Translations under genes and position numbers: made by a program
The notes under the pieces: model-generated
Told to the model about the DNA's origin: nothing
The model's database searches: none
The model's input: only the letters and a program-made list of their open reading frames with translations
Shown here: positions 10,503 to 45,365 of the stretch, piece after piece
Layout of the letters: every line of letters starts with the position of its first letter
Numbering within the stretch: the first letter of the stretch is position 1
Source of the DNA: Natronorubrum halalkaliphilum
Lineage (GTDB): Archaea > Halobacteriota > Halobacteria > Halobacteriales > Natrialbaceae
Assembly: GCF_009834785.1 (NCBI RefSeq)
Contig: NZ_WUYX01000064.1
Coordinates: 4,167 to 57,006, forward strand
Direction of reading: 5' to 3'
DNA length: 52,840 nucleotides

Positions 10503-10717
10503 TGGGCTCCGTGGTGGGTTGTGCGCTCCGATAGGAACGCCTGATTTTCACGATTGACGGCCTGTTCGTCGTCTGGTCTGGTGTTGTCGGTTCTCTCGAG
10601 GGCTATTCGTCCGGAACGGTGCCGGTCGGGTTTTCCCGCTCGGTAGGGGCTCTCTGTCGTCTCTCGAGGGTCCGTCTAGGTACTACGAGGCTTCGTCTAG
10701 CGATTTCCCTGCCTGTG

Positions 10718-10725
10718 TATATATA
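10718..10725 (+). promoter_or_regulatory. Candidate TATA element (TATATATA)
   Basis: TATATATA sits in an otherwise GC-rich spacer upstream of the SipW-type gene. If used, it would leave an untranslated leader of about 100 bases before 10854, which is long for haloarchaea, so the assignment is tentative. Confidence 0.35.
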
Positions 10726-10853
10726 CCCCCCTTTGTCTGGTTGCTTCTGCTGTCCCATTCGGAGTGGCAGTCTCGGCTCGTCGACGGGTGACACGCGGTC
10801 TCACCGCGTTGTGCCCGTGTGCCGTGCGCTCCTTCGAGACGGGGTGGATGACC

Positions 10854-12221
10854 ATGACAGAGGAACACAATTCGATCTCGAGGCGAAACGTGCTCGCAGG
10901 ACTGGGAACCATCGGTGTCGGTGGTGCGCTCGTGGGTGCAGGTACGAGTGCGTATTTCAGTGATGAACAGCAACTTCCAAACGAACTCGCCGCAGGCGAA
11001 CTTGAGCTCAAACTCGACTGGCAACAGTTCTACTACGGTGCGTCACAGGAGACGCGACCACAGGACTACGGTAACGCGGGACGGCCGTATGTCAACGCAC
11101 ACCCCGACGACAACAAGGATGGCGAACAATCGATCGAGGTGAACGGCGAGAAGTACCGGTACAGTGAACTCAGCCGAAACATTGGCGACGATGAAATTGA
11201 CTACTGTACAGATCTCGATCAAGATTTCTACTTTGGCGAGAATCAGGAGTCGCTGATAGAACTCGACGACATCAAACCAGGAGATTGTGGTGAGATTACC
11301 TTTAGTTACCACCTCTGTGATAACGACGGGTGGATCTGGTTCCGGACAAAAAACAAGGATTACCCTGAACCAGGTGAGGAGCCGCATCTTGTCGACGCGA
11401 TCGAGGCGAAGGTGTGGTACGACGTATACGAAAACGAGAACGAAGGTATCGAACAGGGAGACAATGAGCACCAAGAGGAGAAAGAACCGGTGATCGCCAA
11501 GGGATCCCTGCGTGATGTCCTCGAGGAACTAAACGAGAGCAATGGTGGCGTGTTGCTTGATCCCGACCCTCTAGTCGATCCTGATACTAATAATGAGAAC
11601 AAAACCGACGACTGTGTCGAACTCGAGAAGATTGACGACGACACGATCCCTGAAAAGTACACTGGGGACGAAGCTATACAGGATTACCTCCGTGACCTCT
11701 TCGCATCTTACCAAGCGGACGGGGAGGACGGTGATCACATCGAACTCGAGGGCGAAGAAGGGGATACGATCAAGATTTGGATCACTGGCCTCGTGTACCA
11801 AGACGTGGGCGATGAGAGTTCTGAAGTCGTCGGGTTCGACTGGGCGAGCAATTACGGAATCTGTCAGACGAGAGTGAAAGGTGGTCCCGGCGAACCCGAC
11901 GGTGGTGAATTTACCGTCGAGGACTGTGCTTTCGAGGGGGCATCCGTTGCTCCGTTCGGTGCCGCACAAGGAAGGAAACGCTACGGCGTCAGTAACTTTC
12001 AGTTCTGGTACTGCAAAGGTGTGGACGAGCCAAAAGAACCCGAGTGCTTCGAAGCGTCGAACACGCACTACATCGGCTTCGAGTGGTGTCTCCCCGAAGG
12101 TATCGGCAACGAAGTCCAAAACGATGAACTCGATTTCGACTTCGGGTTCTACACCGAGCAGTGCCGTCACAACGATGACCCCACCCCGTACTGGATGGAA
12201 GAGGAAGGAGAAAACAACTGA
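10854..12221 (+). CDS. SipW-type signal peptide protein, TasA-like secreted protein
   Basis: This is a 455-residue acidic protein. The N-terminus SISRRNVLAGLGTIGVGGAL followed by TSAYFSDEQ matches the signal region of SipW-processed TasA/CalY-like proteins: charged start, hydrophobic core, then a FSDxE motif. The mature part is rich in Asp/Glu, aromatic residues and several Cys, with no enzyme motif. A GGGGTGG stretch six bases upstream favours 10854 over an ATG two codons earlier. It converges with a separate SipW peptidase operon 370 bases downstream. By family knowledge, TasA-like proteins form extracellular fibres or bundling pili; that this one does is inference. Confidence 0.75.
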   Translation: MTEEHNSISRRNVLAGLGTIGVGGALVGAGTSAYFSDEQQLPNELAAGELELKLDWQQFYYGASQETRPQDYGNAGRPYVNAHPDDNKDGEQSIEVNGEKYRYSELSRNIGDDEIDYCTDLDQDFYFGENQESLIELDDIKPGDCGEITFSYHLCDNDGWIWFRTKNKDYPEPGEEPHLVDAIEAKVWYDVYENENEGIEQGDNEHQEEKEPVIAKGSLRDVLEELNESNGGVLLDPDPLVDPDTNNENKTDDCVELEKIDDDTIPEKYTGDEAIQDYLRDLFASYQADGEDGDHIELEGEEGDTIKIWITGLVYQDVGDESSEVVGFDWASNYGICQTRVKGGPGEPDGGEFTVEDCAFEGASVAPFGAAQGRKRYGVSNFQFWYCKGVDEPKEPECFEASNTHYIGFEWCLPEGIGNEVQNDELDFDFGFYTEQCRHNDDPTPYWMEEEGENN

Positions 12222-12590
12222 ACTGATCTCGTCGAGAGCGATTTCTCTATATTGATTTGTGCTTCGGTGAAGAAGTGAATAATCGAATATACCGGATCAA
12301 TTTTCTCGGAGGATATCATGATCTTCACCCTTTAACTCCCATAATCAATGCGAAGCGACCAGACGCACTCAGCGATGTCGATGTCGGTGAGACCAGTCCG
12401 TCGAGGGTTTCGAGAAGCAGGCTCCCCGTCGATGGGTTGAAACGAAAATCCTGTCAAACTGAGAGAAAAATGGCTTGAGGATAGATACGCTCGGACACGA
12501 ACCGAGAAACGGCGGGAGCCTACACGGTCTGGAAACCGGAGAGAAGCCGTTCACTTGGTTCGGAGACCGACCAGCGATTCAACTCTTGTC
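12222..12590. other. Convergent intergenic region, 369 bases
   Basis: This spacer lies between two convergent genes and is AT-richer than its surroundings, especially 12250-12340. I see no gene, clear hairpin or repeat. Confidence 0.4.
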
Positions 12591-13271
12591 CTAGTCATCG
12601 GTTTCGTCGTTCTCGGAAGCGTCTGTGTCCTCGGAGTCCGGATCTCCTCCTTCGTTCTCCTTGTCATTTTCTTCGACGGAATCACCGCCGTCAGTGTCTT
12701 TGTCGTCTCCGGACGTCTCCGCCTCGTCATCGCTACTCTCGATTTCACCATCTGTCTCCGATTCATTGCCATCACCACTGTCGAGTGCATCGTCCTCGGA
12801 CGCATCTTCTGCGGAATCGTCAACTTCTTCGTCGCCATCGGAGACGGTCACTTTTCCGTGGATTTCCTCCTCTGCGGCAGTAACCACGTACTCGTGCTCA
12901 CCGACATCCATCTCGTCGACCTCGAGCACGAACGTAACGGTGTCAGACTCATTCCGCTCGAGAGTCATCGCTTCGGTCTCGGATTTGTTTCCGATCTCGA
13001 GAGAAACGTTCACCGCTTCGGTCCCTCTGTTTTCGTTCGTAACCGTCGCTATAACCTCGAGGTCGTTGCTACTGTTCCCAGCCGTATCGAAGTCATCGCT
13101 ATCGTCTTCGACGACGAGCGTATACCCCCACTCAGCCGCACCGATCTGATTATCCTCGAGCGATTCCGAATCCGAGAACTGACTGGTCGTCGTCGCGACC
13201 GATACCGCACCGGCGACCGTCGCGAGGAGGACGAGCGCGACCGCGAGCCGAACGACGTGGACTCGAGTCAT
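12591..13271 (-). CDS. Small acidic TasA-like exported protein with Asp/Glu/Ser tail
   Basis: This is a 226-residue protein. A hydrophobic N-terminal segment is followed by TTTSQFSDSESLEDNQIGAA, the FSDxE-type region seen in SipW substrates. Residues 45-130 form a beta-rich domain (VIATVTNENRGTEAVNVSLEIG). The last 90 residues are almost entirely Asp, Glu, Ser, Gly and Asn. The start overlaps the signal peptidase stop by four bases (ATGA), so the two are translationally coupled and probably form an enzyme-substrate pair. Confidence 0.7.
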   Translation of the reverse strand: MTRVHVVRLAVALVLLATVAGAVSVATTTSQFSDSESLEDNQIGAAEWGYTLVVEDDSDDFDTAGNSSNDLEVIATVTNENRGTEAVNVSLEIGNKSETEAMTLERNESDTVTFVLEVDEMDVGEHEYVVTAAEEEIHGKVTVSDGDEEVDDSAEDASEDDALDSGDGNESETDGEIESSDDEAETSGDDKDTDGGDSVEENDKENEGGDPDSEDTDASENDETDD

Positions 13272-14023
13272 TCGTCCACCTCCGTCCCAGTCGTGGAACC
13301 GTCTGGGACCTCATCTGCGTCCTCGTATTCCAGTTTTGCTCCCGCGTCCGCGTCCGTGCCACCGTCTCCTTCGAGGCCCGCGTCCTCGGCCGGCTCGAGC
13401 GCTGGCGGTTCAACCTGCCCCTCGAGCGCTGGCGGCTCAGAATCGCCACCGTCCTCGGCGTACCCCGGCCCGAGAATCGCCTCCACGAGGCTCCCGCTTG
13501 CGGGCGCGTACCCGAACTCGCGAAGTAACTGCCAGCTCCCCGAGCCGACGAGGACGAGTCCTGGTCCGATCACCAGCACGAACAGCCCCAGACTCGAGCG
13601 GGCGAACAGTAACAGATACCCGAAGTACGGCACGTGCAGGTGGAGATCACCCTGTGCGTACTCGGCGGGGACGAGCCCCTCGTCGGGTTCGTCGTTGGCG
13701 TCGCCTTGCAGTTCGAAGTATCGCTCGCCGTTCTCTTCGACGACGTCGACGACTCTGTGGGTCACGTAGCCGGTGTTGGCTTCGCTCCCATCGTGGAAGG
13801 TCACGATGTCCCCGGACTCGATCTCCTCGGGGTCGACGTCCTGCGTGATAATGACGTCGCCCGCTTCGATCGTCGGACTCATACTCCCCGAGGTGACGAC
13901 GAACGCGTCGTCCCCGCCGACGAGGCCCGGAACGGCGACCAGTCCGACGAGCAACAGGAGCGCCAGCACCACGGCGCCTGCGATGACGGCGAGTCCGGTT
14001 TTGACGGTCGGGTTCACTCCCAT
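13268..14023 (-). CDS. Archaeal type I signal peptidase (SipW/Sec11-like)
   Basis: This is a 251-residue membrane peptidase of family S26B. A transmembrane segment (residues 10-35) precedes the catalytic serine motif SGSMSP with Ser47. A histidine replaces the bacterial lysine (VTHRVV, His89), and the conserved GDAND supplies Asp108. A second hydrophobic segment lies at about residues 135-165, followed by a low-complexity acidic and Pro/Ala tail. It overlaps both flanking genes, forming a regulator-peptidase-substrate operon. It probably cleaves the SipW-type signals of the adjacent acidic protein and the convergent 455-residue protein. Confidence 0.85.
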   Translation of the reverse strand: MGVNPTVKTGLAVIAGAVVLALLLLVGLVAVPGLVGGDDAFVVTSGSMSPTIEAGDVIITQDVDPEEIESGDIVTFHDGSEANTGYVTHRVVDVVEENGERYFELQGDANDEPDEGLVPAEYAQGDLHLHVPYFGYLLLFARSSLGLFVLVIGPGLVLVGSGSWQLLREFGYAPASGSLVEAILGPGYAEDGGDSEPPALEGQVEPPALEPAEDAGLEGDGGTDADAGAKLEYEDADEVPDGSTTGTEVDE

Positions 14024-14619
14024 GGTCCATTCCCCGTCGTCTGATTCGGCGGGAGACCGTCCCTCCCGAGTCGCATCCGACTATCGTACTGCACGTGGAC
14101 TGCCGCCGAGATCGTGAACGCCATCGTAACGAGTGCCGTCCCCACCAGCGGTGGAATCAACGCGAACGGCAGGAGGCCGATCCACATCCCCGCGACGAAG
14201 CCGGTACAGAGGATCCCGAGCCCCGCGTAGTACTTGCTCCAGGGAATATCGTTGTGCGGAACGACGTCGAGATAGACCTCGAGCTCCGACGCGGTCTCGG
14301 TGAGGACGACCGTTCCGCGATCGGCGTCGAACGAAACAACGCCGCCGTCGTCGAGCTTCGGCAGATGCGACTGCCGCAGTGCGGTGTACACCCGCGTCCG
14401 CTGTTCGTAGGTCACCTCCGCCGGCGAAACGTCGTTCTCCCAGGCCGCGACTCGCTCGACGATGTCGCGCAACTCGGCCGCGCCACCGCTCTGCTTGAGA
14501 TAGTGCAGCACGTATCGTCGTCGCTGACAGCTCAACATCTCGAACGCGACGTCCTGTGAGAGTTCCGGCGTTTGCTCCGCCGATTCAGTGACGCCTCGAG
14601 AAACGGTTTCCGGCGTCAT
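14014..14619 (-). CDS. Haloarchaeal winged-helix regulator with membrane tail (DUF7344-like)
   Basis: This is a 201-residue protein from the ATG at 14619; an upstream GTG at 14631 is possible. The N-terminal half is a DNA-binding-like domain beginning FEMLSCQRRRYVLHYLKQSG, typical of the haloarchaeal DUF7344 winged-helix family. Two hydrophobic segments at about residues 130-180 indicate membrane anchoring. It is the first gene of the signal-peptidase operon and overlaps it by ten bases, so it probably controls the secretion module. Confidence 0.7.
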   Translation of the reverse strand: MTPETVSRGVTESAEQTPELSQDVAFEMLSCQRRRYVLHYLKQSGGAAELRDIVERVAAWENDVSPAEVTYEQRTRVYTALRQSHLPKLDDGGVVSFDADRGTVVLTETASELEVYLDVVPHNDIPWSKYYAGLGILCTGFVAGMWIGLLPFALIPPLVGTALVTMAFTISAAVHVQYDSRMRLGRDGLPPNQTTGNGPWE

Positions 14620-15058
14620 AGGCCCGACCACCGAATTGGATCGTTGTCTCTTCCCTGACCCGGCACCCGACCCGGCCCACGGATGGGCTGTTCAGTCACT
14701 GTCCGCCTGCTCGCTGTTGCCTCACTCCCCATCGTCTGGAATGATCTTTCAAATGTGGTTAGTTATGAACGAGATAGAATATCGCCTCAGAGTATAGGTC
14801 CCGGTTGCTCGCTGACGAGGGCCGTTCGGCAGAAATTAATCTCAACTGAAACACTTGCCTCGAGAAGTGACGACTGCGGACTACCGACAATTGGCCATTA
14901 CCATCGGTGTGAAACCGTCGAGACGAGCCGTCCTCAGATCGTGGAACCACACGATGGCTGACAGACGGGTCCCACACCGCGACACTTTTCACTTCGTGAA
15001 AGTAGGAGTCGGTATATATAGCCCGTCCAACCGATCGGATCGATGAGGAATACGCAGG
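14620..15058. other. Divergent intergenic region, 439 bases
   Basis: This should carry promoters for the regulator operon and the small acidic gene. Apart from the TATA element at 15013-15020 and an AT-rich patch around 14740-14800, nothing is recognisable. Confidence 0.45.
15013..15020 (+). promoter_or_regulatory. TATA box of small acidic gene
   Basis: TATATATA lies 39 bases upstream of the ATG at 15059. With the usual 25-base spacing to the start site, this would give a short leader containing GAGGA, a plausible ribosome-binding site. Confidence 0.55.
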
Positions 15059-42418: not shown

Positions 42419-42658
42419 ATGACGAAAGTAGATGCCCGGGACCTCCAGACCAACGAGACTGACGACCGAGGCCGAATCTATCTGGGAACAGAGTACGCGA
42501 ACAAGCGAGTAACCGTCGCTGTCGTCGAAGTAGAATCTGACCATCCAGACGAGGACGAACTTGCTGCTGCGTACCGGGAGGCTTCTGCGAGTGCGGAAGA
42601 ACTTGCGGACGAGTGGGACGACGCATCGGACGAGGCGTGGGGCGAACTCGATAAATGA
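42419..42658 (+). CDS. MazE-like antitoxin
   Basis: This is a 79-residue protein. The N-terminal strand pattern RGRIYLGTEYANKRVTVAVV resembles AbrB/SpoVT-type antitoxin DNA-binding domains, followed by an acidic helix (ELADEWDDASDEAWG) likely to neutralise the toxin. Its stop overlaps the toxin start by ATGA. Confidence 0.75.
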   Translation: MTKVDARDLQTNETDDRGRIYLGTEYANKRVTVAVVEVESDHPDEDELAAAYREASASAEELADEWDDASDEAWGELDK

Positions 42659-43008
42659 GCGAGGGTACAGAGGTTCGTCGCGGTGACGTCGTTATCGTTC
42701 GGCTCGATCCTGCGGAAGGGCACGAGATGAAAAAGACTCGTCCTGCAGTAGTCGTCCAGAACGACGTTGGGAACAAAAATGCCAGTACGACAATCGTTGC
42801 ACCTGCGACGGGAACGTATCGAGGCTATCCGTTCGAGGTTCTCGCCGAAGGAGCGGAGTCGCCGTTCGAGAAAGATTCCTCGATTCGTCTCGACCAGATT
42901 CGTGTCGTCTCCATCGAAAAACGGATTCACTCAGTGCTTGGAAGCCTCGACGCAGAGTCGATGGAGGCAGTGGACGAAGCGTTGAAACTGAGTCTCGGAC
43001 TGGACTGA
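42655..43008 (+). CDS. mazF: MazF/PemK-type endoribonuclease toxin
   Basis: This is a 117-residue protein. The MazF fold signatures VRRGDVVIVRLDPAEGHEMKK (within residues 7-27), KTRPAVVVQND and DQIRVVSIEKRI are present. The arginine in KKTRP and the Ser/Thr in NASTTIV are expected for RNA cleavage. It is on the opposite strand to the other toxin-antitoxin pairs of the island. Confidence 0.8.
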   Translation: MSEGTEVRRGDVVIVRLDPAEGHEMKKTRPAVVVQNDVGNKNASTTIVAPATGTYRGYPFEVLAEGAESPFEKDSSIRLDQIRVVSIEKRIHSVLGSLDAESMEAVDEALKLSLGLD

Positions 43009-44803: not shown

Positions 44804-45088
44804 TCAATCGTCGTCAGCTGTATACGCGCCTCCACGACGTTTGATTCGAGCAACGACCAATTGGTACTCGTCTCGATGGAAAGTGACCGCGAGACGGAAC
44901 TCACCGATACGTACCTTACGGCGTGGACTGTTTTGGAGCGGTTCGCCATAGTCTGGTGGGTCGCGCCACGGAGAATCGACGATTTCGTCGAGTTTGTCGA
45001 TAATGCGTTGCTGCTCGTTCGGATTGAGTGCATCGAGGTCGTCCTGTGCTTTCGATGCGAGTTCCCACGCCCACCCGTCGTCACTCAT
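44804..45088 (-). CDS. RelE/ParE-type toxin
   Basis: This is a 94-residue protein (WAWELASKAQDDLDALNP, RIIDKLDEIVDSPW, then KVRIGEFRLAVTFHRDEYQL and ARIKRRGG). These are the alpha-helix pair and beta-sheet of RelE-superfamily toxins, which cleave mRNA on the ribosome or inhibit gyrase. Its start overlaps the antitoxin stop by eight bases. Confidence 0.8.
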   Translation of the reverse strand: MSDDGWAWELASKAQDDLDALNPNEQQRIIDKLDEIVDSPWRDPPDYGEPLQNSPRRKVRIGEFRLAVTFHRDEYQLVVARIKRRGGAYTADDD

Positions 45089-45365
45089 TCGTGTCGTCAG
45101 TGCCGAATCGTTCGCGCGCTTTTTCGGCGCTCATCGTCCGTTCTTCACGGAAATCCTCCTCCGCTTGAAGGAGTGCGACGAGTTCATCGCGGTCGAACGT
45201 GGGGTGTTCGACGGCATCGCGTAAGGTATACCGAATAAATTCGCTTCGACTGTTGAATCCTCGTCCTTGCCACGTGTCTTCGATCTCGTTGAGAAACGAC
45301 CGTGTGACTTTGAAGTTTACCGTGACGATCTCGTCGTCGCCGTTGTTTGTGGCCGCTTCGGACAT
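45081..45365 (-). CDS. Ribbon-helix-helix antitoxin (RelB/ParD-like)
   Basis: This is a 94-residue protein. EIVTVNFKVTRSFLNEIEDT followed by RGFNSRSEFIRYTLRDAVEH is a typical ribbon-helix-helix; the C-terminal acidic part would bind the RelE-like toxin. It lies about 100 bases downstream of the chorismate mutase stop on the same strand. Confidence 0.8.
   Translation of the reverse strand: MSEAATNNGDDEIVTVNFKVTRSFLNEIEDTWQGRGFNSRSEFIRYTLRDAVEHPTFDRDELVALLQAEEDFREERTMSAEKARERFGTDDTNE

Follow-up and report, generated by a model that had tools for sequence, protein, structure and literature searches.

The cassette and its setting

Positions 10854-14619 of a 52,840-nucleotide stretch of haloarchaeal DNA from Natronorubrum halalkaliphilum (contig NZ_WUYX01000064.1; the whole stretch is called here the window) hold four genes, P1 to P4. 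They encode a protein of well-supported TasA/camelysin kinship, a smaller protein with a SipW-type cleavage motif, a signal peptidase and a DUF7344 protein (Table 1). P1 is read from the plus strand and converges on a minus-strand operon with the order P4-P3-P2. The genes of this operon overlap by 10 bases (P4/P3, 14014-14023) and by 4 bases (P3/P2, 13268-13271), exactly as the initial annotation of this DNA had it with its overlaps of 4-10 bases.

Table 1. Features of the cassette (window coordinates) and of a gene near related modules (coordinates preceded by the locus)
Feature	Positions	Strand	Description	Basis
P1	10854-12221	+	455 residues; well-supported TasA/camelysin-superfamily protein; twin-arginine (RR) motif (R10 R11); cleavage region GTSA/YFSDEQ	TIGR04088, PF12389, profile comparison
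P2	12591-13271	-	226 residues; SipW-motif protein of the general secretory (Sec) type; signal peptide, SQFSDSES, beta-sandwich, acidic tail	
P3	13268-14023	-	archaeal/SipW-like signal peptidase I; SGSM 45-48, THR 88-90	TIGR02228, tree
P4	14014-14619	-	DUF7344; hydrophobic C-terminal segments 131-176	PF24035, hydropathy
Putative TATA element GTGTATATATAC	10715-10726	+	about 130 bases upstream of P1	identical in 7/7 type-A orthologues
CxxC gene	L069:17394-18245, L071:14553-15419, L077:4252-5079, L081:17065-17862, L083:5888-6787, L085:5384-6235		membrane-protein-like; near type-B modules	

Together, the four genes make up a discrete cassette. An amidohydrolase gene (Pfam) flanks it on one side; the other flank lies past a 76-residue open reading frame (ORF), beyond which stands a gene that we take, by similarity, to encode dihydroorotate dehydrogenase. 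In six of the eight P1-less relatives examined (loci L135-L138, L140 and L141), the dehydrogenase and amidohydrolase genes share a single short stretch that lacks the cassette; in L135, L138 and L140, one or two other genes separate them there. In the other two relatives (L139 and L142), the stretch examined contained no recognised amidohydrolase gene. The 76-residue ORF and the amidohydrolase gene together span 1.7-1.8 kb in L136, L137, L138 and L140, and in the window they are separated by 4.56 kb.

This set of four genes in this arrangement, termed here type A, is found in genomes G000, G007, G002, G006, G008, G015 and G024. Beyond its own genome, the cassette is thus present in six of 40 relatives, a recurrence that puts the arrangement beyond chance, and the 4-base overlap of the peptidase and P2 genes is kept in all seven type-A loci. 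Close relatives include Natronorubrum sulfidifaciens, the P1 of which is 82% identical; a scan of genome contigs with a single sequence yielded one locus. Between the 76-residue ORF and the cassette, at about 14985-15005 of the window, lies an inverted repeat, ACTTTCAC-GAA-GTGAAAAGT, which was spotted by eye and is partly conserved in the alignment.

Kinship of the encoded proteins

P1 scores 25.6 bits against TIGR04088, the model for SipW-dependent signal peptides (cut-off 19; residues 18-50), and 32.6 bits against PF12389 (TasA/camelysin; gathering cut-off 22.5), the latter match being confined to residues 11-55. It had been described initially as a second, 455-residue FSDxE protein converging on the operon; the length and the convergence hold, and the motif does not. 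Because the motif of P1 is YFSDEQ, the protein fits TIGR04088 without a literal FSDxE, a sequence that occurs anywhere in just one (P2) of the 46 called ORFs of at least 100 residues in the window. By hydropathy, the sole hydrophobic segment of P1 comprises residues 13-31, and there is no C-terminal membrane anchor.

Relatives of P1 were collected from 40 listed ORFs into two sets: A1, i.e., P1 of the window with 21 of these ORFs, hand-picked as long and apparently full-length, and A3, with six of them. TIGR04088 is matched at E≤0.01 by 21 of the 22 members of A1. Outside the signal, KPGD (141-144), C155, W411, P414 and a C-terminal EQxRHN are invariant or nearly so in this set. Camelysin-like proteins were drawn from genomes further off in the phylum; the best PF12389 matches there cover model positions 10-195 and 20-193 of 196. 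Signal peptides were removed, and a C-terminal pattern served to select 12 of 19 candidates, so that this block is favoured. In profile-profile comparison of the mature parts, these 12 archaeal proteins scored 97.7% against the P1 family and 98.3% against small (~250 residues) haloarchaeal paralogues, which in turn scored 99.7% against the P1 family. Control comparisons gave at most 0.3% (reversed profiles) and at most 0.6% (peptidase and helix-turn-helix profiles). The score between camelysins and the P1 family fell to 92.2% when the first 25 mature residues were removed, to 91.5% when the bridging protein L106_7831 was left out and to 69.1% when both were omitted, and the seven type-A orthologues alone scored 94.5% against the camelysins. 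Seen in these profiles, membership of P1 in the TasA/camelysin superfamily is well supported.

Camelysins and paralogues align in three blocks: at the mature N-terminus, along the KPG strand and along the C-terminal "NExQG...F.Q" strand; in the P1 family, the aligned blocks are separated by large variable inserts. P1 itself has a long insert, at a position where its paralogues carry vWA domains; such a domain is present in five of the 22 A1 relatives, and the integrin matches of A1 are attributed to the rows that bear it. P1 has 10 cysteines in 455 residues, compared with 0.63% in the called proteins of the window, and the even number of cysteines in 17 of the 22 A1 members suggests disulphides. 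Two TasA-like proteins of very distant archaea (L108:4358-5764 and L081:3607-5433) have an inserted domain in common (33.9% identity, E-value 3e-29), as though TasA scaffolds exchanged cargo domains.

P3 scores 99.2 bits against TIGR02228, the archaeal signal peptidase I model (cut-off 51.85). It has an SGSM motif, YVTHR at residues 86-90, two hydrophobic segments and an acidic C-terminus, and its Ser/His pair is presumably S47/H89, following LepB numbering. The Ser/His signal peptidase announced by the initial annotation is therefore there, and the SipW-type secretion module proposed with it is well supported. P1 matches occur in 15 of the 41 genomes searched, the present one included. A P3 match of at least 72 bits accompanies them in 13 of these 15 and is found in none of the 26 genomes without P1, where the best match is 36.4 bits (Fisher test, 6e-9, not corrected for phylogeny). 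A peptidase tree was built from 20 of 25 sequences, five without the exact motif pattern being dropped. In this tree the peptidases of the haloarchaeal modules, P3 among them, form one clade (0.905; type A 1.000), and those of TafA-like loci group apart from it with a housekeeping-type peptidase of the present genome (0.965). Among 25 peptidase ORFs (from 27 loci), the next gene encodes a hydrophobic N-terminus in 20; 17 of these downstream proteins look by eye to be of SipW type, the one at L068 weakly so, and the remaining three represent another conserved protein.

The acidic FSDxE protein of the initial annotation is P2, with the motif SQFSDSES, a signal peptide without RR, i.e., of Sec type, a beta-sandwich at about residues 68-143 and a tail (145-226) that is 51% aspartate plus glutamate. 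No family was found above its cut-off, and TIGR04088 gave no match at E≤1. The AlphaFold2 model of P2 has a mean predicted local distance difference test (pLDDT) score of 58.3, with blocks of residues 71-140 averaging 68 to 84 and forming the sandwich. Foldseek ranks GH3 and other enzymes highest, at a query template-modelling score of ~0.3, and we read the fibronectin-III-like domains of those enzymes as the matching part. One P2 orthologue has a sub-threshold CARDB match (18.4 bits; threshold 22.7), and from model and match the body of P2 resembles a sandwich of fibronectin/CARDB type. Its initial 21 mature residues can be aligned to the small paralogues (58.9%); the body without the first 25 scores 0.7% against the archaeal camelysins, and P2 was rejected on this score as a subunit of TasA fold. 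Of the "TasA-like substrates" once claimed in the plural, P1 is upheld by the profiles, and P2 is not, because it shares only the signal region and ~20 mature residues. In two related modules, of the type B described below, the P2 counterpart consists of the N-terminal segment followed by acidic low-complexity sequence, with no domain visible in the stretch examined. Since the processed N-terminal segment is what is conserved, P2 would suit a cap, an initiator or an anchor.

P4 matches PF24035 (DUF7344) with 106.4 bits, and this family is one of helix-turn-helix regulators. The regulator is also present at the type-A locus of G015.

A candidate export-and-processing unit and its alternatives

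The cassette may be a self-contained export-and-processing unit for an extracellular structure of the TasA superfamily; taken whole, this model has about even credence. P4 would control expression, as its family and position suggest. P1 would leave through twin-arginine translocation (Tat), probably in folded form, and P2 through Sec, and P3 would cleave both just before [YQ]FSD, as the SipW motif, the co-occurrence and the coupling of the genes suggest. Outside the cell, the anchorless P1 would probably polymerise, its freed N-terminal segment entering the beta-sandwich of a neighbour (donor-strand exchange, as in TasA). This would produce a thin fibre or matrix, with the inserted region of P1 on display. 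As for P2, its retention of the N-terminal segment on a different body, together with the acidic tail, makes it more likely to start, cap or anchor such a fibre than to build it. By analogy, fibre assembly is a reasonable inference. The most specific version, a TasA-type donor-strand matrix fibre of subunits exported through Tat in folded form, with plug-in cargo domains within the TasA scaffold, a dedicated peptidase of SipW lineage and a Sec-exported cap sharing only the processed N-terminal segment, is put forward tentatively, as possible rather than probable.

Several observations weigh against such a unit. Being convergent, P1 is not co-transcribed with the P4-P3-P2 operon. A strong P3 match is missing from two of the 15 genomes with P1: G012 has none, its P1 locus lying on a 9.3-kb contig, and G034 has one of 42.2 bits, beside its P1 cluster. 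P3 reaches only 93.3 bits against NF046067, the Bacillus SipW equivalog (cut-off 190), so that it is SipW-like and not that equivalog. For the type-A orthologues alone, the score against the camelysins drops to 58.5% when the first 25 mature residues are cut away, and to 32.8% when the bridging protein is left out as well. The AlphaFold2 model of P1, made from a two-row alignment (window and L033), has a pLDDT of 38.4 and is unusable, which leaves sequence profiles as the support for the fold. Searches with P1, its N-terminus, A1 and A3 matched none of the solved chains of TasA or bundling pili, and the generic Tat model TIGR01409 gives P1 14.5 bits, below its cut-off of 16.7. Finally, P1 is a single copy in this genome, which has one TIGR04088 protein over the cut-off, whereas a second kind of haloarchaeal SipW module, type B (e.g., L069, L071 and L081), has tandem P1-like paralogues, up to six being listed at one locus.

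The single copy also suits a different reading: P1 would be an adhesin or binding protein, either secreted or associated with the surface layer, a TasA-like scaffold that presents its insert and does not polymerise, and P3 would merely process P1 and P2. The large variable inserts, the vWA domains and the insert common to the L108 and L081 proteins all agree with it. However, P1 has no anchor, TasA and its archaeal relatives, the bundling pili, are described as polymers assembled by donor strands (PMC9674648, PMC9715654), and the tandem paralogues of type-B modules suit multi-subunit fibres. An adhesin is unlikely on this balance, if still a serious contender.

Another question is how P1 leaves the cell. 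Its N-terminus, MTEEHNSISRRNVLAGLGTIG, has a twin-arginine motif that the initial annotation overlooked, in the context SRRNVLAGLG and ahead of the hydrophobic segment. The frequency of this motif was counted among proteins found without recourse to the N-terminus: 1,519 ORFs of 20 loci were searched with profiles of two mature blocks only, and 53 matched. RR and a hydrophobic stretch, then an [FL][SN]D site, are present in 41 of them, and six more have RR near the N-terminus; three have it further in, and three lack it (two fragment-like, and L084, which is Sec-like). The RR of all 22 A1 members was not used, since that count is circular, the A1 ORFs having been selected by a pattern containing RR. 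From these sequences, export of P1 by Tat is likely. Processing by Tat had initially been named as a refutation, but the motif would alter the export route and not the SipW assignment, because Tat is a translocase and a substrate exported by it could still be cleaved by P3. The alternative is that RR is incidental and that P1 follows Sec, in an ordinary Sec/SipW/TasA system. No RR was seen in the non-haloarchaeal camelysin-like relatives examined, nor in any of the 20 proteins encoded just after the peptidase, and the subthreshold TIGR01409 score points the same way. Yet the 41 homologues of 53 argue against it, and haloarchaea send much of their secretome through Tat, which leaves the Sec route rather improbable.

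Could the cassette be a divergent relative of the Tat-exported fimbriae (tafi) described in haloarchaea (Galeva et al. 2025, as cited in PMC12687288), with P1 as a homologue of TafA? The Tat signals are similar, and there are weak matches, in the signal peptide only, to TafA (NF052520, 16.7 bits) and to PDB 9p0a "Pilin". The TafA match is limited to residues 10-31 and misses the cut-off of 190, and the same genome has a separate TafA-like locus (L144) with its own peptidase of another clade. This score and this locus rule out P1 as a member of TafA, and a divergent tafi locus is very improbable. A metalloprotease of camelysin type, which the Pfam name of PF12389 would make of P1, is hardly credible, given the short N-terminal match and the description of TasA homologues called camelysins that nevertheless form filaments (PMC10151520), although no search aimed at a zinc site was made.

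If the export-and-processing unit proved true, a Tat-based route would be added to TasA-type matrix fibres, and a new question would follow: how could a subunit already folded on export hold back a strand with which to polymerise outside? A family common in haloarchaea would, moreover, gain a likely function: the A1 profile matches 138 of 292 sampled genomes and 50 of 77 genera, and NCBI already names the family SipW-dependent, only for its signal peptide. The viral contigs searched with the A1 and A3 profiles yielded no locus. In the literature collection searched, there was no paper on a haloarchaeal SipW signal peptidase and no archaeal title joining SipW and twin-arginine, papers on the SipW-dependent-type signal peptide had Bacillus titles, and the passages of PMC13082335 contributed nothing about archaea; the Tat/SipW pairing may still have been described already.

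Related systems and further loci

The tapA-sipW-tasA operon of B. subtilis resembles the cassette in its SipW-like peptidase, its major TasA-superfamily protein, a smaller partner coupled to the peptidase and a SipW-type cleavage segment. It differs in that P1 has a Tat-type RR, is longer and has inserts, and is convergent instead of lying in the operon; the partner here, P2, comes after the peptidase and has a beta-sandwich and an acidic tail. For TapA itself, a chaperone function is described and a role as nucleator of TasA proposed (PMC10151520). Archaeal bundling pili share with the cassette archaeal, TasA-related subunits; in contrast to them, the present system has a Tat motif and gives no profile match to any solved chain. 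With tafi the likeness lies in the Tat-type signal of the main subunit and in the signal peptidase I gene near the TafA-like loci L086 and L144, whereas mature P1 is unrelated to TafA by sequence, and the two differ in peptidase clade and locus.

Type-B modules are closest in composition, with RR+FSD proteins, a SipW-like peptidase, a Sec-type partner and DUF7344 genes; their tandem arrays and vWA inserts set them apart, as does an extra gene with CxxC near six of them. This gene, with the signature [NP]xYTGxNRCxxCT, is membrane-protein-like. Given its proximity to these modules and the cysteine-rich proteins of P1 type, a link with disulphides is conceivable.

Elsewhere in the genome, contig C46 carries the TafA-like gene with RR together with a DUF7344-like gene and a second signal peptidase (L144:4000-10693), and contig C13 a further peptidase locus (L143:5246-7756); at least one other Tat-fimbria-like locus is thus present. 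In the window itself, a stretch of lower guanine-plus-cytosine content has two small overlapping gene pairs (42419-43008 and 44804-45365), which by eye look like antitoxin/MazF-like and CopG/RelE-like toxin-antitoxin pairs.

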